Of a stretch of 64,000 bases of DNA, positions 38,104-49,250 are shown one piece after another (the first letter of the stretch is position 1; each line of letters starts with the position of its first letter). Source of the stretch: an uncultured Lachnospiraceae bacterium (lineage in GTDB: Bacteria > Bacillota > Clostridia > Lachnospirales > Lachnospiraceae); NCBI GenBank assembly GCA_934899185.1, contig CAKXYI010000006.1, forward strand, positions 41,181 to 105,180, written 5' to 3'. The notes below the pieces were generated by a model that made no database searches, had not been told where the DNA came from, and saw only the letters and a program-made list of their open reading frames with translations. The translations under genes were made by a program, and so were the position numbers.

Positions 38104-40959
38104 ATGGAAAGAAGTAAGGACGAAAAGTATCTGATGACACCGTATTCATTGGATGAGGATCGTAACAAAAAGGATCCGAGAGCGGGATATTGCATCGAAG
38201 AGTTAAAGAATAAGCCGTTCCGTGAGCCGCTTGCAAAGTTTGCAAAGGCTGTTACTGACCGCGCAAAGGTACAACTTGGCAAGGAAGATATCACAGCAGA
38301 AAGCCCGGAGTATTGGGGACTTTACAATCTTGTTACAGATGAGCAGTGCGAGATCGGTATCAAGATGGAGAAGCGTCATCCAAGAACACTTGCTGATATG
38401 AAGGCTCTTTGCCCGGAATATTCTGAGGAAGAACTCTTGAAGCAGTTGGAAGAAATGTCTTATAACGGTGTGATCGAGTGGAATTATGAGAATCCACAGC
38501 ATGAGAAGCAGTGGGTACTTCCTATGTATGTACCGGGTTCTGCTGAGTTCGGCAACATGAATGCAGACCTTTTGGAGAGACATCCGGAAGTAGGACCATT
38601 CTTCGAGCGTATGAGCCGTATCCCATTGGAAGGTCTGACCCAGATGGTACCACAAGGCGGCGCAGGCGTTGGTATGCACGTTATCCCGGTAGAGGATGCT
38701 ATCAGCATGGAGAACAATTCTTCTTCCTTGGAGCATATCTCCTACTGGCTGGACAAGTACGAAGGCAAATATGCAGCCAGCCCATGTTCTTGTAGAAAGT
38801 CTCGCAAGACTTATGAAGAAGGCTGTGCGGATGATCCGGAAGGCTGGTGTATCGCAATCGGCGATATGGCTGACTACGTTGTTGAGACAAACAAGGGCGG
38901 TCGCTATATCACCAAAGAAGAAGTATTAGAGATCTTAAAGAAGGCTGAGGACAATGGTTTTGTTCATCAGATCACCAATATTGATGGCGAGGAAAAGATC
39001 TTTGCTATCTGTAACTGTAATGTTAATGTATGTTATGCACTTCGTACATCACAGTTATTTAATACACCAAATATGTCACGTTCTGCTTATGTAGCACACG
39101 TTGTCAAGGATAACTGTGTTGCCTGCGGACGTTGTGTTGAGGTTTGTCCGGCTGGTGCTGCAACCTTAGGCCAGAAACTCTGTAAGAAGGACGGATCTGA
39201 GGTCGTATATCCTAAGATGCCACTTCCGACCGAGCAGAAATGGTCTTCGGATATGTGGACAGAGGATTACCGCGATATCAACCGTATCAATACACATAAG
39301 ACCGGTACTGCTCCATGTAAGACAGCATGTCCTGCACACATTCCGGTACAGGGGTATCTGAAGATGGCTGCACAGGGCAGATACGAAGAAGCGTTGGCTC
39401 TGATCAAGAAGTACAATCCACTTCCGGCAGTTTGCGGACATGTATGTAACAGACGTTGCGAGGATGCATGTACCCGTGCAACGATCGATGAGGCGATTGC
39501 TATCGATGAAGTAAAGAAGTTCATCGCAATGCAGGATCTCAAGGCAGACAAACATTATGTACCAAAGAAGGTCATTCCAAAGATCCAGGGTGGTTTCGAC
39601 GAAAAGGTAGCCATCATTGGTGCAGGTCCTGCCGGTATTTCCTGCGCATATTATCTGGCAGAAAAAGGCTACAAGCCAACCTTGTTTGACAAGAACAAGA
39701 AGCCGGGTGGAATGGTTACTTACGGTATTCCTTCTTTTGTTATGGAAAAGGATGTAGTTGAGGCAGAGGTTGACGTACTCCGTGACATGGGCGTTGACAT
39801 TCGTCTTGGTGTTGAAGTTGGCAAGGACATTACCTTAAAGCAGTTGCGTGAGGAAGGCTACAAGGCATTCTATATCGCTATCGGTTGCCAGGGGGGACGT
39901 GGCATCAACGTACCTGGTGAAGATGCAGAAGGCGTAATGAAGGGTGTTGATCTTTTACATACGGTTATTGATGACGAGTCTTATACACTTTCCGGTGATA
40001 CCGTTGTTATCGGTGGTGGTAACGTAGCCATCGATGTATCCCGTACCGCAGTTCGTTGTGGAGCATCTAAGGTAACACAGGTTTCTCTGGAGACACGTGA
40101 TATCATGCCGGCACTTCCGGAAGAGATCGAACTGGCTGAATCCGAAGGTATCGCATTCGCAGGCGGATGGGGACCAAAGGAGATCCTTACAGAAAATGGT
40201 AAGGTGACCGGTATCGTATTCAAGAAGTGTACGCAGGTCAAGAATGCAGAAGGACGTTTCGATCCTCAGTATGATGAGAACGAGACAATGACGATCGCAT
40301 GCAGCAACGTCATTCTTTCTGTAGGTCAGGCTACCATCTGGGGCGACCTCTTAGAAGGCGAAAATGTCGAATTTAGAGGACCGGCTCCGGTTGCAGACAA
40401 GGTTACATTCCAGACAACTGTTCCGGATATCTTTGTCGGTGGTGATATGTTCTATGGACCAAGATTTGCCATTGACGCTATCGCATGTGGTAAGGAAGGC
40501 GCGATCTCTATCCATAGATATGTACAGCCTCATTCATCACTTACGATCGGTCGTGATCCAAACTACTTCTTAGAGTTGGATAAGGACGATATCCTGGTTG
40601 AAAATTATGACAACACCGGTCGTCAGACAGCAGTGATCAAGAAGAATACAGATGGCAAGTTGACCTTCCGCGATATGAAAGAAACCTTTACCGAGGAACA
40701 GGTTAAGGCAGAGACAAGCCGTTGCTTAGGCTGTGGTGCTTCTATCGTTGATCCAAACAAGTGCGTAGGTTGTGGTCTCTGTACAACCAAGTGTGAATTT
40801 GATGCGATCAAACTTACAAGAGACAATCCAAAGGCTTCTACTATGCGTAAGTCAGAGGACAAGTTGAAGTATATTCTGCCAAATGGTGCTGCACAGGCAA
40901 TCAAGCGTCCATTTATCAGAAAGACATCCAAAGAGACCGCTTGGTATGTTGAAAAATAA
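38104..40959 (+). CDS. Multidomain FAD/4Fe-4S oxidoreductase (GltD-like)
   Basis: 951-aa cytosolic redox protein. The N-terminal region (1-330) has Cys-rich CSCRKSRKTYEEGC and CNCNVNVC, followed by a 4Fe-4S cluster CVACGRCVEVCPAGA. A GltD-type domain (about 395-480) follows with CKTACPAHIP and CGHVCNRRCEDAC. The FAD/NAD(P) Rossmann pair has IIGAGPAGISCAYYLAEKGY and VVIGGGNVAIDVSRTA, and a C-terminal ferredoxin-like CVGCGLCTTKCEFDA is preceded by CLGCGA. Probably transfers electrons between NAD(P)H and an unknown acceptor. Start 38104 follows GGAGGAAAG. HypB is in the same transcript, hinting at a link to metal or hydrogenase chemistry. Confidence 0.85.
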   Translation: MERSKDEKYLMTPYSLDEDRNKKDPRAGYCIEELKNKPFREPLAKFAKAVTDRAKVQLGKEDITAESPEYWGLYNLVTDEQCEIGIKMEKRHPRTLADMKALCPEYSEEELLKQLEEMSYNGVIEWNYENPQHEKQWVLPMYVPGSAEFGNMNADLLERHPEVGPFFERMSRIPLEGLTQMVPQGGAGVGMHVIPVEDAISMENNSSSLEHISYWLDKYEGKYAASPCSCRKSRKTYEEGCADDPEGWCIAIGDMADYVVETNKGGRYITKEEVLEILKKAEDNGFVHQITNIDGEEKIFAICNCNVNVCYALRTSQLFNTPNMSRSAYVAHVVKDNCVACGRCVEVCPAGAATLGQKLCKKDGSEVVYPKMPLPTEQKWSSDMWTEDYRDINRINTHKTGTAPCKTACPAHIPVQGYLKMAAQGRYEEALALIKKYNPLPAVCGHVCNRRCEDACTRATIDEAIAIDEVKKFIAMQDLKADKHYVPKKVIPKIQGGFDEKVAIIGAGPAGISCAYYLAEKGYKPTLFDKNKKPGGMVTYGIPSFVMEKDVVEAEVDVLRDMGVDIRLGVEVGKDITLKQLREEGYKAFYIAIGCQGGRGINVPGEDAEGVMKGVDLLHTVIDDESYTLSGDTVVIGGGNVAIDVSRTAVRCGASKVTQVSLETRDIMPALPEEIELAESEGIAFAGGWGPKEILTENGKVTGIVFKKCTQVKNAEGRFDPQYDENETMTIACSNVILSVGQATIWGDLLEGENVEFRGPAPVADKVTFQTTVPDIFVGGDMFYGPRFAIDAIACGKEGAISIHRYVQPHSSLTIGRDPNYFLELDKDDILVENYDNTGRQTAVIKKNTDGKLTFRDMKETFTEEQVKAETSRCLGCGASIVDPNKCVGCGLCTTKCEFDAIKLTRDNPKASTMRKSEDKLKYILPNGAAQAIKRPFIRKTSKETAWYVEK

Positions 40960-40978
40960 TAACAGATGATATATCAGA

Positions 40979-41019
40979 AGGAGCAGTTTCCTGCAGAGGG
41001 AACTGCTCCTTCTCTCTTT
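40979..41019 (+). terminator. Terminator of hypB-oxidoreductase operon
   Basis: AAGGAGCAGTTTCC pairs with GGGAACTGCTCCTT, followed by a pyrimidine-rich tail (TCTCTCTTTATTT). Confidence 0.8.
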
Positions 41020-41086
41020 ATTTCTATGGAAAAATGTGGTACAATACTCGAACACAATTTGTCATTTGGTAAGGGAGAAATGTACT

Positions 41087-42097
41087 ATGCCTGGAAATAC
41101 TTGGGGGGAGATCCTCTATAATGTGATTGTGATCTATCTTGCATTGACGCTTGTATTGACCTGTTATTCTGTGATTCGGATGTATATCGTCAAACATTTT
41201 TGCAATGGAGTCAAATATGGAAAAATGCGTATCAAACAACTGACAGCGGAGGGACGATTCCGTCAGTTGCCAGTCTATTCTCTGGATGAGATCTATGAGG
41301 ATAAGGATCTGGGGACGGTACGCCTGAGTGTATTTCCCAATGACAGCGGCAAGCGCACCAAATATGTTCTGGTTCTGCCAGGCGGTGGTTATGCCCACTG
41401 CGTGACCAGAGAAGAAGGCTATCCGATCGCAGCCAAGTTTAACGAGATGGGATATACTGTTTTTGTATTAGAATATCGCACGGGATTTCATTGTACCCCA
41501 TATGCGCCGATGGAAGATGTGGCGCGGGCGATCAAACATATCGAAGACCATCAGAAAGAATACAATATCGACCCGGAGGGCTATGCCCTGTGTGGCTTTT
41601 CAGCAGGTGGCAATCTGGCGGGTATCTATGCCAGCCATAGTCATGGCTATGAGACTTATGGCACGCGCAGACCGGCGACTATTATGCTGGGCTATCCTTG
41701 GACCAATATGCAGCATTGGCTGGATCACCCTTACTGGAATATCTGGAAAGGAATTATGGGAGTCTGGCTTTCTGAGCGTGGCTTCATTTATATGTTTGGA
41801 CGTTCCTGCAATCAAGAAAAGAGAGAGTCTCTCTGTGTGCAAGAGCAGGTAACAGACGATTATCCGCCGACCTATATGTTTTCCGGTGGACGTGATGTTT
41901 TAGTGCCGGCATCCCATCATGCGGAAGTGTTGGTAGATGCTCTGGAAGAACATCATGTGAAATACCGTTATCGCCGTTTCTTTTCCCTGCCGCATGGTAT
42001 TGGGCTTGGCTTAGGCACGAGTGCAGAAGGCTGGCTGAAAGAGGCAATAGATTTCTGGCAGTTTAATGTGTCAGAGAAAGAATCAGAGACAAAATAA
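41087..42097 (+). CDS. Alpha/beta hydrolase (esterase/lipase-like) with N-terminal membrane helix
   Basis: 336-aa hydrolase. A single membrane segment (VIVIYLALTLVLTCYSVI) is followed by an alpha/beta-hydrolase fold: oxyanion PGGGYAHC, nucleophile elbow CGFSAGGNLAG, a C-terminal FSGGRDVLVPASH (Asp) and FSLPHGIGLG (His). It resembles the BD-FAE/acetyl-esterase group. Orientation of the catalytic domain relative to the membrane is uncertain. The start at 41087 follows GGGAGA; the upstream in-frame extension overlaps the terminator region. Monocistronic. Confidence 0.85.
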   Translation: MPGNTWGEILYNVIVIYLALTLVLTCYSVIRMYIVKHFCNGVKYGKMRIKQLTAEGRFRQLPVYSLDEIYEDKDLGTVRLSVFPNDSGKRTKYVLVLPGGGYAHCVTREEGYPIAAKFNEMGYTVFVLEYRTGFHCTPYAPMEDVARAIKHIEDHQKEYNIDPEGYALCGFSAGGNLAGIYASHSHGYETYGTRRPATIMLGYPWTNMQHWLDHPYWNIWKGIMGVWLSERGFIYMFGRSCNQEKRESLCVQEQVTDDYPPTYMFSGGRDVLVPASHHAEVLVDALEEHHVKYRYRRFFSLPHGIGLGLGTSAEGWLKEAIDFWQFNVSEKESETK

Positions 42098-42110
42098 ATA
42101 CATAGATGCA

Positions 42111-42152
42111 AAAGGGTACATAGGACTTTTGATCCTGTGTACCCTTTTTTTT
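42111..42152 (+). terminator. Terminator after the hydrolase gene
   Basis: AAAGGGTACATAGGA pairs with TCCTGTGTACCCTTT (one mismatch or wobble), followed by T-rich sequence. Confidence 0.88.
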
Positions 42153-42164
42153 CATATGTAGAAA

Positions 42165-42761
42165 TTACTTTTTGTTGTATAACTCGCAGATAATGTCTAC
42201 GCAGGTTTCTTCACCTAATTCGCCACTATCTAAGGCTACATCGTAATTGCGGTAGTTGCCCCACTGCTGGTCGGTGTAGTATTTGTAGTAAGTCTTACGT
42301 TGCTTATCCTTTTTGGCAAGTCGTTTTTCAATGCCAACATTCTCAATCTCACCATAGCGCTCCAAGATACGTTTGGTACGATGCTTCATATCGGAATGGA
42401 TAAAGACATTCAAGCATTTCACATCTTCATTGCGTAGGATATAATCTGCACAGCGTCCGACAATGACACATGGTCCTTTGGCTGCGCAGTCGAGGATGAC
42501 GCGCTTTTGTGCGATGAAGATCTCGTCCTGAGGACTTTGGAAATACATGGCACTGGCAGCTGAAATGTCAAACCATTTATTCGTAGAGGTAGAGTATTCG
42601 CCCTGTTCTTCGATCAATTCTTTGGCATAGCCACTTTCTTCTGCCACGCGTGTCACAATTTCCCCGTCATAAAATGGTATACCGAGTTTGGTCGCGACCT
42701 TTTCGCCGATGCTGTGTCCACCACTACCAAACTCTCTACTTATCGTTATTACTGGGTACAT
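42165..42761 (-). CDS. Cytidylate kinase-like family protein
   Basis: 198-aa P-loop kinase-like protein of the cytidylate-kinase-2 family. The N-terminus is YPVITISREFGSGGHSIGEK (a modified P-loop with GSGGHSIG), followed by YDGEIV, VIVGRCADYIL and FIHSDMKHRTKRI. It is not the essential Cmk, which is longer and has GPAGSGKST. The nucleotide substrate is unknown. On the minus strand GGGAGG lies 8 nt before the chosen start; the Met two codons earlier is too close. Promoter at 42791-42819. Confidence 0.85.
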   Translation of the reverse strand: MYPVITISREFGSGGHSIGEKVATKLGIPFYDGEIVTRVAEESGYAKELIEEQGEYSTSTNKWFDISAASAMYFQSPQDEIFIAQKRVILDCAAKGPCVIVGRCADYILRNEDVKCLNVFIHSDMKHRTKRILERYGEIENVGIEKRLAKKDKQRKTYYKYYTDQQWGNYRNYDVALDSGELGEETCVDIICELYNKK

Positions 42762-42790
42762 ATGCATTACCTCCCTTCTTTCTTACCCCT

Positions 42791-42819
42791 ATTATATTTA
42801 AAATTGTCAGAAAAATCAA
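42791..42819 (-). promoter_or_regulatory. Sigma-A promoter of the cytidylate-kinase-like gene
   Basis: On the minus strand TTGATT (42819-42814), 17 nt, TATAAT (42796-42791). It fires away from the structured RNA region. Confidence 0.65.
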
Positions 42820-42834
42820 TGCGGAATCTTGGAA

Positions 42835-43380
42835 GATTTGTTAAATTAGGGCGGGACAGATCAACGTGAGCGGGGCGCGAGGAAGGCGGGGCTGGGCTTG
42901 CAAGGGGGGATCATTGGAGCAGATTATGTAAGTCTTTTCAAGAGGAATATTTGCTTGCGGGAAACTGTCTCTTGCACAGCTTCGACAGTTGGCAGGATGT
43001 GTCCGCCTGAGGTAGATATTCAGGGCTCCGTTTATAAGAGATGCTAAGAACTTGCACTATGACATGGAGCAACCGATGGCAACCGACGCAAACGAACATC
43101 CGTGTGCGGTTGCGTCTCGTGTGTACATCCTTGTACACACGTTGCCTACATTTTAACAAGTTCTAAGCATCTCTAATGCACTGCGCATTCATATCTGTCT
43201 CAGGCGAACATCATCCAAGACGGCTGTCTAACTTTGCAAAGACAGTTTCTATAGATAAAAGCAAATGTTCCTCTAAAAAAAGACTACATGTTCTGCGACC
43301 GATCCCCCCTTGCAAGCCCAGCCCCGCCTTCCTCGTGCCCCGCTCACGTTGACAATCAACTTTGCCCGGATTTACAAATC
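42835..43380 (+). ncRNA. Candidate large structured non-coding RNA (long nested foldback)
   Basis: A 546-nt gene-free region that folds on itself. The outer helix 42862-42912 pairs with 43301-43351 over 51 bp with a single G-U. Inside, 42931-42956 pairs with 43259-43285, 43004-43019 with 43191-43206, and 43037-43054 with 43157-43174. The core is a three-way junction closed by GGCAAC (43078) and GTTGCC (43141), holding GACGCAA/TTGCGTC and GTGTGTAC/GTACACAC hairpins. Further short pairs at 42835-42841/43374-43380 extend it. All four substitutions between arms that allow wobble are G-U or U-G on the + strand, and would be A-C on the minus strand. No ORF with a ribosome site and no match to a class I know. 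A fold-back mobile element is the alternative. Confidence 0.65.
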
Positions 43381-43481
43381 GTCCAATTATAAACTTTATT
43401 TAATAAAAAGTTAATATCCAGTTCACCCACTTTTGCCTGAAATTGGATATAATAAGAAAGTAAGTTAGGGGGATTGATAGT

Positions 43482-44381
43482 ATGTCAAGTGCAGCGAAAG
43501 CAGTACGAAAAAAGGCTATGGCATCTGCAAATATGGGGATAGATGCAAAGACCAGGAACAAGGGGAAGAAGATGAATAAGGGGAAATCAAGTATGGAAGA
43601 AAGACAAAGAGAGACAGACGAACAGAATATAGAAGTGCAGGAGACCTATGAAACCGAGACGGTCTCTACTGCATACCAGACCATCGATGGGACGACCGAG
43701 ACGATCGAGGTCTATGAATTGATGGCATCACAGACGACGACCGGGGAAGATATGCGTCATATGGCGGATATCCATGATGAATTCATGCACACCATGGATC
43801 CTATCCTTCGCATGTATAATGCGGCTATGAATGTTACGGAAACCCGCATGAACATCATCAAGGATGAGTTCAAGTACCGTGGACTTCGTTGCCCGATCCA
43901 TCATATTGATACGCGATTAAAGTCTATGAAGAGTATTGTCGGCAAGTTAGAGAAAAAGGATCTGGATCTTTCCTTGAATGTCGCATGCAATAATATTTAT
44001 GATATTGCCGGAGTGCGTGTCGTATGTCCTTACATCAAGGATGTATATCTGATCCGTGACCGTTTGATGGCACAGGACGATGTACATATCATGGAAATCA
44101 AGGACTACATTGCCAATCCGAAAAAGAACGGCTACCGCAGTCTGCACATGATTATCCGCGTGCCGGTCTACTTTATGAATAAGAAGCAGTTCGTACCGGT
44201 CGAGGTACAGATCCGTACCGAGGCGATGGATATGTGGGCAAGTCTGGAACATGATATTAAGTATAAGTCTTTGTATCAGGATATCGGTGTAGATTTTACA
44301 GGTGAGTTATTGGAGTGCAGCAAACTTATCTATCAGGCAGAAGAAAAGATGGAATACATGAATAATGTGCTGGAGGGATAG
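43482..44381 (+). CDS. Small alarmone synthetase (RelA/SpoT-domain GTP pyrophosphokinase)
   Basis: 299-aa (p)ppGpp synthetase lacking HD hydrolase and TGS domains. The synthetase core has YRGLRCPIHHIDTRLKSMKS, NNIYDIAGVRVVCPYIKDVY, NPKKNGYRSLHMII, VEVQIRTEAMDMWASLEHDI and the C-terminal helix. A lysine-rich and acidic N-terminal extension of about 100 residues precedes it and is probably disordered. SAS1/YjbM-like enzymes of this type form tetramers. GGGGGA precedes the ATG. It would raise alarmone levels under stress. Confidence 0.9.
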   Translation: MSSAAKAVRKKAMASANMGIDAKTRNKGKKMNKGKSSMEERQRETDEQNIEVQETYETETVSTAYQTIDGTTETIEVYELMASQTTTGEDMRHMADIHDEFMHTMDPILRMYNAAMNVTETRMNIIKDEFKYRGLRCPIHHIDTRLKSMKSIVGKLEKKDLDLSLNVACNNIYDIAGVRVVCPYIKDVYLIRDRLMAQDDVHIMEIKDYIANPKKNGYRSLHMIIRVPVYFMNKKQFVPVEVQIRTEAMDMWASLEHDIKYKSLYQDIGVDFTGELLECSKLIYQAEEKMEYMNNVLEG

Positions 44382-44435
44382 ATAGAACTCTATATTGACT
44401 GATAATAGATAGGAAAGTGTGAAAAATGTGTGAAA

Positions 44436-47429: not shown

Positions 47430-49250
47430 ATGTGTGGAATCATAGGATTTATTGGAAATGATGCTTTAAATGGCATTTTAAACGGGCTGGAACTGTTGGA
47501 ATACAGAGGTTATGACAGTGCGGGATTTGCTATCCGAAGAGCGGGCGAGGGTCTGCCGGAGATTCACAAATGCCAGGGACGCGTCAAAGATCTGCGGGAG
47601 ATTTCTCCGAAAACCGGCGATTATACCTGTGGCATCGGTCATACAAGATGGGCGACTCACGGTGGCGTGTCTGATACGAATGCACATCCACATCGTGTGG
47701 GAAAAGTAACGCTGGTTCACAATGGGATTGTGGAAAATTACAAGGAACTGAGTGAAGAGTATGAGGTGGAAGACCAGTTGGTATCGGAGACGGATACCGA
47801 GGTGGTAGCGGCTCTATTGAACAAGTTTTACAAGGGAGATCCGAACGAAGCCATCCGTAGAACGGTCAAGAAATTAAAGGGCACCTATGCCTTAGTAGTG
47901 ATGTTTGACGATATACCGGATACCATTTATGCGACCAGAAATGTAAGTCCAATCGTTGTGGCAAAGAATGAGGAACTGACCATTCTGGCATCCGATCCGG
48001 CAGCCTTATATGAGTATTCCAAGGAGTTTTTTGTCTTGGATGAAAAGTGTATCTTAAAGGCAACCAAGGCGCAGGTTTCTGTTGTTGATTTTAATGGGCA
48101 GGAAGTGCAGCCGACAATGCAGATCGTTGACTGGGATGCAGGAAATACCGGCAAGCAGGGCTATGCTTATTATATGGAAAAAGAGATCAACGAGCAGCCG
48201 GAGGCTTTGAAGCGGATCCTGACAAACTATCTTGTAGATGGTAGTATCGATCTTGGCTACGAAGGGACTGTGGATGAAATGCTGACCTCTTTTAACCGCG
48301 TTTGCATTGTAGCATGCGGAACCGCCTTGCATGCAGGCATGATGGGTGCCCATCTGTTTCGGAAATGGCTGGGTATTCCGGTCGAGACAGAGATGGCATC
48401 GGAATTTATTTATTCTGACACCGTTCTGGATAAGGAAACATTGTTTATTGCAGTATCCCAGTCCGGCGAGACCATCGATACCATGGAAGCATTAAAGAAA
48501 GCGAAAAAAGAAGGCGCCGCCTGTCTGGCAGTCTTAAATGTCAGAGGTTCGTCCATTTCCCGTATCGCAGATTATACGCTTTATACCGATGCAGGTCCTG
48601 AGATCGCGGTTGCCAGCACAAAGGCATACACGACCCAGTTGATGATCTTTTATCTATTGGTATTGCGTTGTGCATCTTTGCGGGGTAGGATGACAGAGGC
48701 GGATTTGGAACATGCACTAGAAAATCTCAGAAGAGTGCCGGATGCCATTACCCAGGTCATTGCCATCAAAGACGACATCCATCGTCAGGCTAAGGAAGTG
48801 ATCATGGCGAGCGACCTCTTTATGATCGGTCGTGGCATGGATTATCTGGTTCTGTTGGAGGGAGCCTTAAAACTCAAGGAAATCTCTTACATCCATTCCG
48901 AGGCATATGCTGCCGGCGAATTGAAGCACGGACCGATCGCCCTGATCACAGACGGCACCCCGGTCATTGCAGCAGCGACCCAAACAAAACTGATCTCCAA
49001 GGAACTTTCCAATGTAAAAGAGATCAAGGCAAGAGGCGCCAATGTCGTGCTTCTGACAAAGGAAGAACTGAAAGCGGACTTTGCTCAGAGCGGTGAGTAT
49101 CATGTCATCGGTCTGCCAAATCTGGACGACGAATATATGTCATTCCCGGAGATTGTTGCTTTGCAACTCTACTCCTACTATGTGTCAGCAGATAAGGGGC
49201 TGGACGTAGATAAGCCAAGAAACTTGGCAAAAGTTGTAACTGTAGAATAA
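47430..49250 (+). CDS. glmS: Glutamine--fructose-6-phosphate aminotransferase (isomerizing)
   Basis: 606-aa enzyme making glucosamine-6-phosphate for peptidoglycan. N-terminal Ntn glutaminase begins MCGIIGFIG with Cys2 as nucleophile, followed by RGYDSAGF and GHTRWATHG. Two SIS isomerase domains follow (VACGTALHAG, SQSGETIDTM, ASTKAYTTQ), and the C-terminus is the usual DKPRNLAKVVTVE. Regulated by the upstream ribozyme. Confidence 0.98.
   Translation: MCGIIGFIGNDALNGILNGLELLEYRGYDSAGFAIRRAGEGLPEIHKCQGRVKDLREISPKTGDYTCGIGHTRWATHGGVSDTNAHPHRVGKVTLVHNGIVENYKELSEEYEVEDQLVSETDTEVVAALLNKFYKGDPNEAIRRTVKKLKGTYALVVMFDDIPDTIYATRNVSPIVVAKNEELTILASDPAALYEYSKEFFVLDEKCILKATKAQVSVVDFNGQEVQPTMQIVDWDAGNTGKQGYAYYMEKEINEQPEALKRILTNYLVDGSIDLGYEGTVDEMLTSFNRVCIVACGTALHAGMMGAHLFRKWLGIPVETEMASEFIYSDTVLDKETLFIAVSQSGETIDTMEALKKAKKEGAACLAVLNVRGSSISRIADYTLYTDAGPEIAVASTKAYTTQLMIFYLLVLRCASLRGRMTEADLEHALENLRRVPDAITQVIAIKDDIHRQAKEVIMASDLFMIGRGMDYLVLLEGALKLKEISYIHSEAYAAGELKHGPIALITDGTPVIAAATQTKLISKELSNVKEIKARGANVVLLTKEELKADFAQSGEYHVIGLPNLDDEYMSFPEIVALQLYSYYVSADKGLDVDKPRNLAKVVTVE

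Follow-up and report, generated by a model that had tools for sequence, protein, structure and literature searches.

To our knowledge, TwoAYGGAY RNA (Rfam family RF01731) has been a candidate RNA since 2010, and its function is unproven. CsrA-sequestering small RNAs of the CsrB/RsmZ type are encoded by one or few genes. TwoAYGGAY RNA was proposed as CsrA-binding in 2014 by Gardner and Eldai, with a call for validation (PMC4333381), and the CsrA SELEX consensus is given as RUACARGGAUGU in two further articles (PMC6692469, PMC7652899). The CsrA antagonist described for Bacillus subtilis and the Firmicutes in the latter article is the protein FliW; thus, an RNA antagonist of CsrA in Clostridia would be new. 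For mobile palindromes, PMC2817692 describes REPs around a resident RAYT, together with BIMEs mobilised by such transposases. Neither the RNA family nor its proposed link to CsrA is new. In the largely open-access literature that we searched, we found no report of the mobility and multicopy nature of TwoAYGGAY RNA, and likewise none of the core/arm split, the REP arms in one genome (G002) or the genome-wide association with CsrA and flagellation described below.

We addressed a foldback located between two divergent genes in the window, that is, the whole stretch of 64,000 nt that was analysed. The reading that we favour, and consider moderately probable, is that this foldback is one member of a set of dispersed palindromic elements, non-autonomous and resembling MITEs or BIMEs, that encode a CsrA-type RNA clamp at their tip. 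The features of the locus are as follows.

42165-42767, minus strand: kinase-like gene, 200 aa (named from a reading of the sequence, not from a domain search)
43482-44381, plus strand: RelA/SpoT-like (alarmone) synthetase gene (named in the same way)
42829..43386, no strand: whole palindromic element, 558 nt, limits set by strict arm-to-arm alignment
42862..42912, no strand: 51-bp GC-rich outer helix, arm 1, with one wobble in 51 pairs
43301..43351, no strand: 51-bp GC-rich outer helix, arm 2, partner of 42862..42912
42950..43270, minus strand: conserved inner part, from blastn against five copies in G002 (L037, L043, L049, L055 and L061)
43023..43188, minus strand: TwoAYGGAY RNA (RF01731), Rfam, 95.6 bits with a gathering score of 43, E 1.6e-15 for the window
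43118..43141, minus strand: apical hairpin 1, loop GUACAAGGAUGUAC, GGA at 43128-43130
43085..43116, minus strand: apical hairpin 2, loop ACACGGAUGU, GGA at 43099-43101

The two halves of the block pair over nearly their full length, as a preliminary description of the locus had claimed. The minimum free energy of the foldback block was -324.2 kcal/mol on the plus strand and -308.3 kcal/mol on the minus strand, compared with about -160 for shuffled sequences (z scores of -23.2 and -23.8), and none of 100 shuffles was equally good on either strand. The 51-bp outer helix was confirmed, its sole non-Watson-Crick pair being 42877 G with 43336 T, and two probes from its first arm gave no further match within the 64-kb window at up to 3 mismatches. 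The junction bearing two apical hairpins was also found, and the description of the block as gene-free holds, the only candidate being a mechanically called ORF of 73 aa (42938-43159, minus strand) that makes no convincing gene. Between 42700 and 43520, a promoter scan gave two promoter-like sites versus 1.3 (sd 1.1) expected, and a terminator scan found none. A sigma-70-like site (10/12) at 43414-43386 on the minus strand lies at the palindrome edge and points into the TwoAYGGAY strand; the frequency of such sites was not above chance. Elsewhere in the window, the Rfam search returned a glycine riboswitch aptamer (RF00504, 6203-6311, minus strand, 52.2 bits) and a glmS ribozyme (RF00234, 47216-47364, plus strand, 84.3 bits), the latter immediately preceding an ORF of 606 aa (47430-49250) whose translation looks like glucosamine-6-phosphate synthase.

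The RF01731 match at the apex covers the full model (1-168 of 168), and it corresponds to the inner stem, junction and two apical hairpins that the preliminary description had assigned to no named RNA class. Judged from sequence, the apex would encode TwoAYGGAY RNA, most likely on the minus strand. The two GGAs of the window copy are 29 nt apart. The loop of hairpin 1, GUACAAGGAUGUAC, matches the CsrA SELEX consensus with zero mismatches; in terms of the AYGGAY pattern, loop 2 (ACGGAU) fits and loop 1 (AAGGAU) has A at the Y position. Paired hairpins with GGA in the loop and an ANGGA core, which define the CsrA type of site, are present in the window copy as ACAAGGAUG and ACACGGAUG. We extended the analysis to 64 copies, comprising the window copy and 63 of the 98 matches in related genomes introduced below. 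Paired GGA hairpins, with variable stems, were found in 61 of them, and the three without a second GGA hairpin are most likely the three copies from G016. The perfect consensus RUACARGGAUGU occurred in 9 of the 64 on the TwoAYGGAY strand and in 0 of the 64 on the opposite strand. By eye, all 15 copies taken from 15 genomes of a phylum-wide sample (L151-L165) carried two CA(N)GGA(U/C)G loops.

These results bear on the original interpretation of the locus as a new structured RNA of about 490 nt transcribed from the plus strand. All four wobble sites cited in its favour are indeed G-T or T-G on that strand, the arms of the window copy show 12 G-U versus 4 A-C on the plus strand under strict alignment, and the folding energy of the plus strand is slightly lower. 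However, a known RNA family lies on the opposite strand, the bias vanishes over 64 copies, the outer arms are not common to the G002 copies, and the element is dispersed and multicopy. The four wobbles thus could not stand as proof of selection on an RNA, and we rejected a new plus-strand RNA, now very improbable, on the Rfam match and the loss of the wobble bias over copies. What survives of the proposal is the probable presence of a structured RNA at this locus. A single conserved RNA fold does not extend over the whole foldback, as the outer arms are copy-specific in G002 and the arms lack a wobble bias.

We examined the distribution of the element at 32 loci, most of them from records titled Roseburia or Lachnospiraceae, in which a relative of the neighbouring synthetase occurs. 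RF01731 was absent at the gathering score from all 32, and blastn of 40901-44400, which is sensitive to close relatives of the window copy only, likewise found no element there. Seven of these loci (L001-L007) retain the kinase-like neighbour (75-94% identity) next to the synthetase; the intergenic region of L001 has diverged, so that a target-site duplication of the window copy is unreadable. A second empty site was observed at L071 of G002, where 653 nt separate the flanking alignments in G002, compared with 60 nt in G656. The 16 whole genomes behind the 32 loci were then searched for RF01731 (E 0.001 or better). Six contained it in many copies (G002, 12; G008, 14; G010, 19; G011, 6; G012, 39; G016, 8), 96 of these 98 matches being over the cut-off, and no match was found in the other 10. 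A comparison search for 6S RNA, a true RNA gene, gave a single match per genome in 27 of 28 genomes (the 27 where it was found). Between the window copy and the five G002 copies named above, 42950..43270 showed 72-75% identity by blastn over 309-325 aligned columns; of the sets of copies found, that of G002 is the closest to the window copy. We also considered a phage or plasmid origin and set it aside; 42860-43353 was without match in 50,697 phage and 72,556 plasmid records, within the sensitivity of such a search to distant relatives. Clostridiales-1 RNA (RF01699) was observed at one of the 32 loci (L014, 6538-6697, plus strand, 114.3 bits), downstream of the synthetase relative.

The many copies and the empty sites make a fold-back mobile element, named in the preliminary description as the main alternative, a serious explanation, and the element is probably mobile as DNA, to judge from the sequence comparisons. 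It had been argued that many near-identical copies with target-site duplications and without compensatory changes would favour a mobile palindrome over an RNA gene. Many copies and empty sites were indeed found, but the copies are not near-identical, no consistent target-site duplication was found, and the core does have compensatory changes.

The positions of the copies relative to genes could also reflect cis-regulation of the neighbouring genes, with the element serving as a leader or as a 3' UTR element, in which case CsrA would act on each host mRNA. RF01731 carries the type label Cis-reg in Rfam, the minus-strand RNA of the window copy points towards the kinase-like gene (200 aa), which has the same direction, and 17 of 22 copies in G012 lie upstream of a co-directional gene. 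No other genome leans in this way, however, and orientation relative to both neighbouring genes was nearly even (16/16/14/12 among the 58 of 64 copies that a simple ORF caller made scorable). Moreover, the downstream gene is on the opposite strand in 8 of 12 G002 copies, and the seven relatives keep the kinase-like gene and synthetase adjacent without the element; we regard such a cis-regulatory role as improbable. Close pairs of TwoAYGGAY RNAs on opposite strands (minus, then plus), with starts about 310-460 nt apart, were recurrent: G011:C36:18969 and 19280, G024:C47:139778 and 140187, G024:C33:53805 and 54268, G222:C69:180277 and 180638, and G053:C123:25808 and 26152.

The copies differed in length and in their ends. 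The foldback measured 543-710 nt in the 12 G002 copies and 558 nt in the window, and 164-393 nt in 51 copies of the other five genomes, some of which are cut by contig ends. Many copies in G008, G010, G012 and G016 end in GATTCGGGTGTCAAAAGG and its complement, and this motif had 136 matches in those four genomes at up to 2 mismatches, with 0 for the reversed control. Runs of five or more T stood just outside 23 of 49 recognised ends in the same genomes, compared with a background of 60 in 1216 overlapping windows, and by eye many of these T-tracts are intrinsic terminators. The same type of end also delimits core-less mini-palindromes (L138, L139, L142, L144, L145 and L147-L150) and deletion derivatives (L131, L132 and L136). 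Three G010 palindromes (L133, L134 and L135) have GATTCGGGTGTCAAAAG-type ends and a different core of about 100-150 nt, similar in all three, which may be a second structured cargo carried by these mobile arms. A TwoAYGGAY copy in G008:C22 (L121/L137) has its left arm replaced or split by a different sequence, with end motifs about 420 bp apart. Terminal inverted repeats, dispersed copies and a lack of coding capacity (assessed by length and mechanically called ORFs), the defining traits of MITEs, were all observed for the element; the window copy itself shows inverted arms only. No consistent target-site duplication was found among copies, and no autonomous partner with GATTCGGGTGTCAAAAGG ends was noticed by eye among the matches of the end-motif search. 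TTAATC on both sides of the mini-palindrome L138 (G010:C4) is a possible 6-bp target-site duplication and the lone candidate.

The long arms in G002 allowed us to compare each arm with its own partner and with other copies. Over the 120 nt next to the core, the own opposite arm was the best match in 0 of 12 copies in each of three bins, and the best match was always the same arm of another copy. Further out, the own opposite arm was best in 11 of 12 copies at 120-160 nt, 9 of 12 at 160-200 nt and 6 of 12 at 200-240 nt. The inner part in G002 is common to the copies, whereas the outer part is a copy-specific palindrome. This split between a shared inner and a private outer part is clear in G002 only, and the shorter-armed genomes differ: over the first 40 nt, the own arm was best in 7 of 10 copies in G010, 2 of 22 in G012 and 0 of 10 in G008.

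To compare core and arms, we used a symmetric wobble count with equal penalty for G-U and A-C. The core stem gave G-U:A-C of 42:13 on the TwoAYGGAY strand, similar to the 29:12 of 26 control 6S RNAs (129:74 with laxer settings), whereas the arms over 64 copies gave 202:223, with no bias (core versus arms, P = 5e-5). When contexts were counted once per genome, the difference was weak (core 22:10 versus arms 173:197, P = 0.026); a single-path count gave 54:26 for the core and 203:237 for the arms, and the apical hairpins showed 18 G-U and 10 A-C. Used as a strand test, the arm counts favoured neither strand. A laxer first alignment, in which the arms ran into unrelated flank (core 74:28), was replaced by the strict one, and tRNA acceptor stems, of which there were 8 only, were replaced as wobble control by 6S RNA. 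Among 39 core sequences, 31 of 37 consensus pairs occurred in 3-4 Watson-Crick types; covariation in a long hairpin may reflect either a DNA palindrome or an RNA. RNAalifold on the 39 cores gave -54.4 for the other strand versus -51.0 for the TwoAYGGAY strand, with 39 G-U and 33 A-C on the TwoAYGGAY strand and 72 and 55, respectively, on the other strand's own structure. We read these results as a core under RNA-level constraint and arms kept at the DNA level, with the proviso that copies within a genome share ancestry.

A link to a transposase was observed in G002. The repeat TAGGGACGGATACC is present in both arms of 6 of the 12 copies (L064, L065, L068, L069, L072 and L074) and in neither arm of the other 6, and the only Y1 transposase match of this genome (L127) is flanked by inverted copies of a TAGGGACGGATACC-type repeat. 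The L127 protein scored 74.8 bits against the model of REP-associated tyrosine transposases, for which the cut-off is 80. The RAYT search, used as a negative control for the genome-level associations, showed no enrichment across a family sample of 299 genomes, RF01731 being found in 44 of them (E 0.001 or better; 42 over the cut-off). RAYT matches with E below 1e-12 occurred in 9 of the 44 RF01731 genomes versus 47 of the 255 others (P = 0.83), and any RAYT match in 14 of 44 versus 110 of 255 (P = 0.19). G012, with 39 RF01731 matches, had no Y1 transposase match, and RAYT as a general mover was rejected on these two grounds.

CsrA, found in 154 genomes of the family sample, was present in 43 of the 44 RF01731 genomes versus 111 of the 255 others (P = 4e-13). 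In a phylum sample of 348 genomes, with RF01731 in 47 (31 over the cut-off), CsrA occurred in 45 of the 47 (30 of the 31) versus 203 of 301 others (P = 1.7e-5, or 2.8e-5 after dropping three RF01731 genomes common to the family sample); the genomes behind all these P values are not phylogenetically independent. Both samples were scored for presence of RF01731, and capped copy numbers per genome were left out of the analysis. RF01731 genomes without CsrA were G182 in the family sample and G492 and G545 in the phylum sample. RF01731 is over the cut-off in both G182 and G492, which gave no CsrA match; G182, a 1.6-Mb assembly in which flagellin is present, is likely an incomplete assembly. Flagellin was found in all 44 RF01731 genomes of the family sample. 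CsrA and flagellin occurred together in 151 genomes, CsrA only in 3 and flagellin only in 5; because the two nearly coincide, CsrA is inseparable from motility or kinship. Thus, the genome-level link is to a motility-CsrA module, and CsrA itself would be singled out by the loop sequences only.

The same observations could arise from a selfish palindrome (MITE or BIME) that acts at the DNA level only. Its loops would be recognised as single-stranded DNA by a transposase, with the RNA and CsrA links as by-products of confinement to motile lineages. The arms without RNA wobble bias, the G002 arm repeat that matches that of the resident transposase, and the existence of solo mini-palindromes and of deletion derivatives that share these ends accord with such an element, as do the slight RNAalifold preference for the other strand and the flagellation of 44 of 44 hosts, in which CsrA may be a lineage marker. 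However, the core wobble ratio resembles that of 6S RNA, the match of the loops to the CsrA consensus is confined to one strand, the REP transposase family is not associated with RF01731, and the CsrA association was seen again in the phylum-wide sample. We consider the selfish palindrome rather unlikely.

Under the favoured reading, namely a mobile palindrome with an RNA clamp at its tip, a trans-acting transposase would move the element as DNA, and insertions would often fall beside terminator T-tracts. In G002, this mover may be the REP-type tyrosine transposase resident there. Read-through or antisense transcription of a copy might expose the clamp, and in a transcribed copy the two GGA hairpins, 29 nt apart here, are predicted to bind a single CsrA dimer. 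The numerous copies in Clostridia that are flagellated and contain CsrA would in that case amount to scattered predicted docking sites for CsrA. The outer palindrome may be kept by a DNA-level process rather than by selection on an RNA helix, either because a single-strand DNA hairpin is selected during transposition or because one arm is corrected by the other. Candidate gains include CsrA titration, regulation of flanking genes and regulation of transposition. We further propose, tentatively and as a possibility only, that the mobile palindrome spreads predicted CsrA docking sites through motile Clostridia, copied up to tens of times, and so couples the CsrA-FliW-flagellin switch to a scattered, self-amplifying sponge, the arms being rewritten within each copy by a DNA process and staying self-complementary. 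If the elements are both CsrA-binding and mobile, the repeated and patchy occurrence of TwoAYGGAY RNA would be explained; they would constitute candidate RNA antagonists of CsrA in Clostridia that are directly testable, and a transposable element would have taken up the docking site of a global regulator.

Compared with known systems, the element resembles MITEs in its common end motif GATTCGGGTGTCAAAAGG in four genomes and in its solo and internally deleted versions, but differs from them in that no transposase with these ends was noticed and no consistent target-site duplication was seen. It resembles RAYT-mobilised BIMEs in that 6 of 12 G002 copies carry the arm repeat that flanks the resident RAYT-like gene, but a conserved structured RNA forms its central cargo, and RAYT below 1e-12 occurs in 9 of 44 RF01731 genomes. 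With the CsrA-sequestering RNAs of the CsrB/RsmZ type it shares paired hairpin loops with GGA, whereas here there are two GGA hairpins per core and many dispersed copies, and CsrA binding is predicted. The closest relationship is with TwoAYGGAY RNA itself, which it matches over the full model at 95.6 bits with two GGA-loop hairpins on an outer stem; however, the stem of the window and G002 copies extends into long arms (foldbacks of 543-710 nt), and loop 1 of the window copy is AAGGAU instead of AYGGAY. The window copy is an extended variant of the TwoAYGGAY family.
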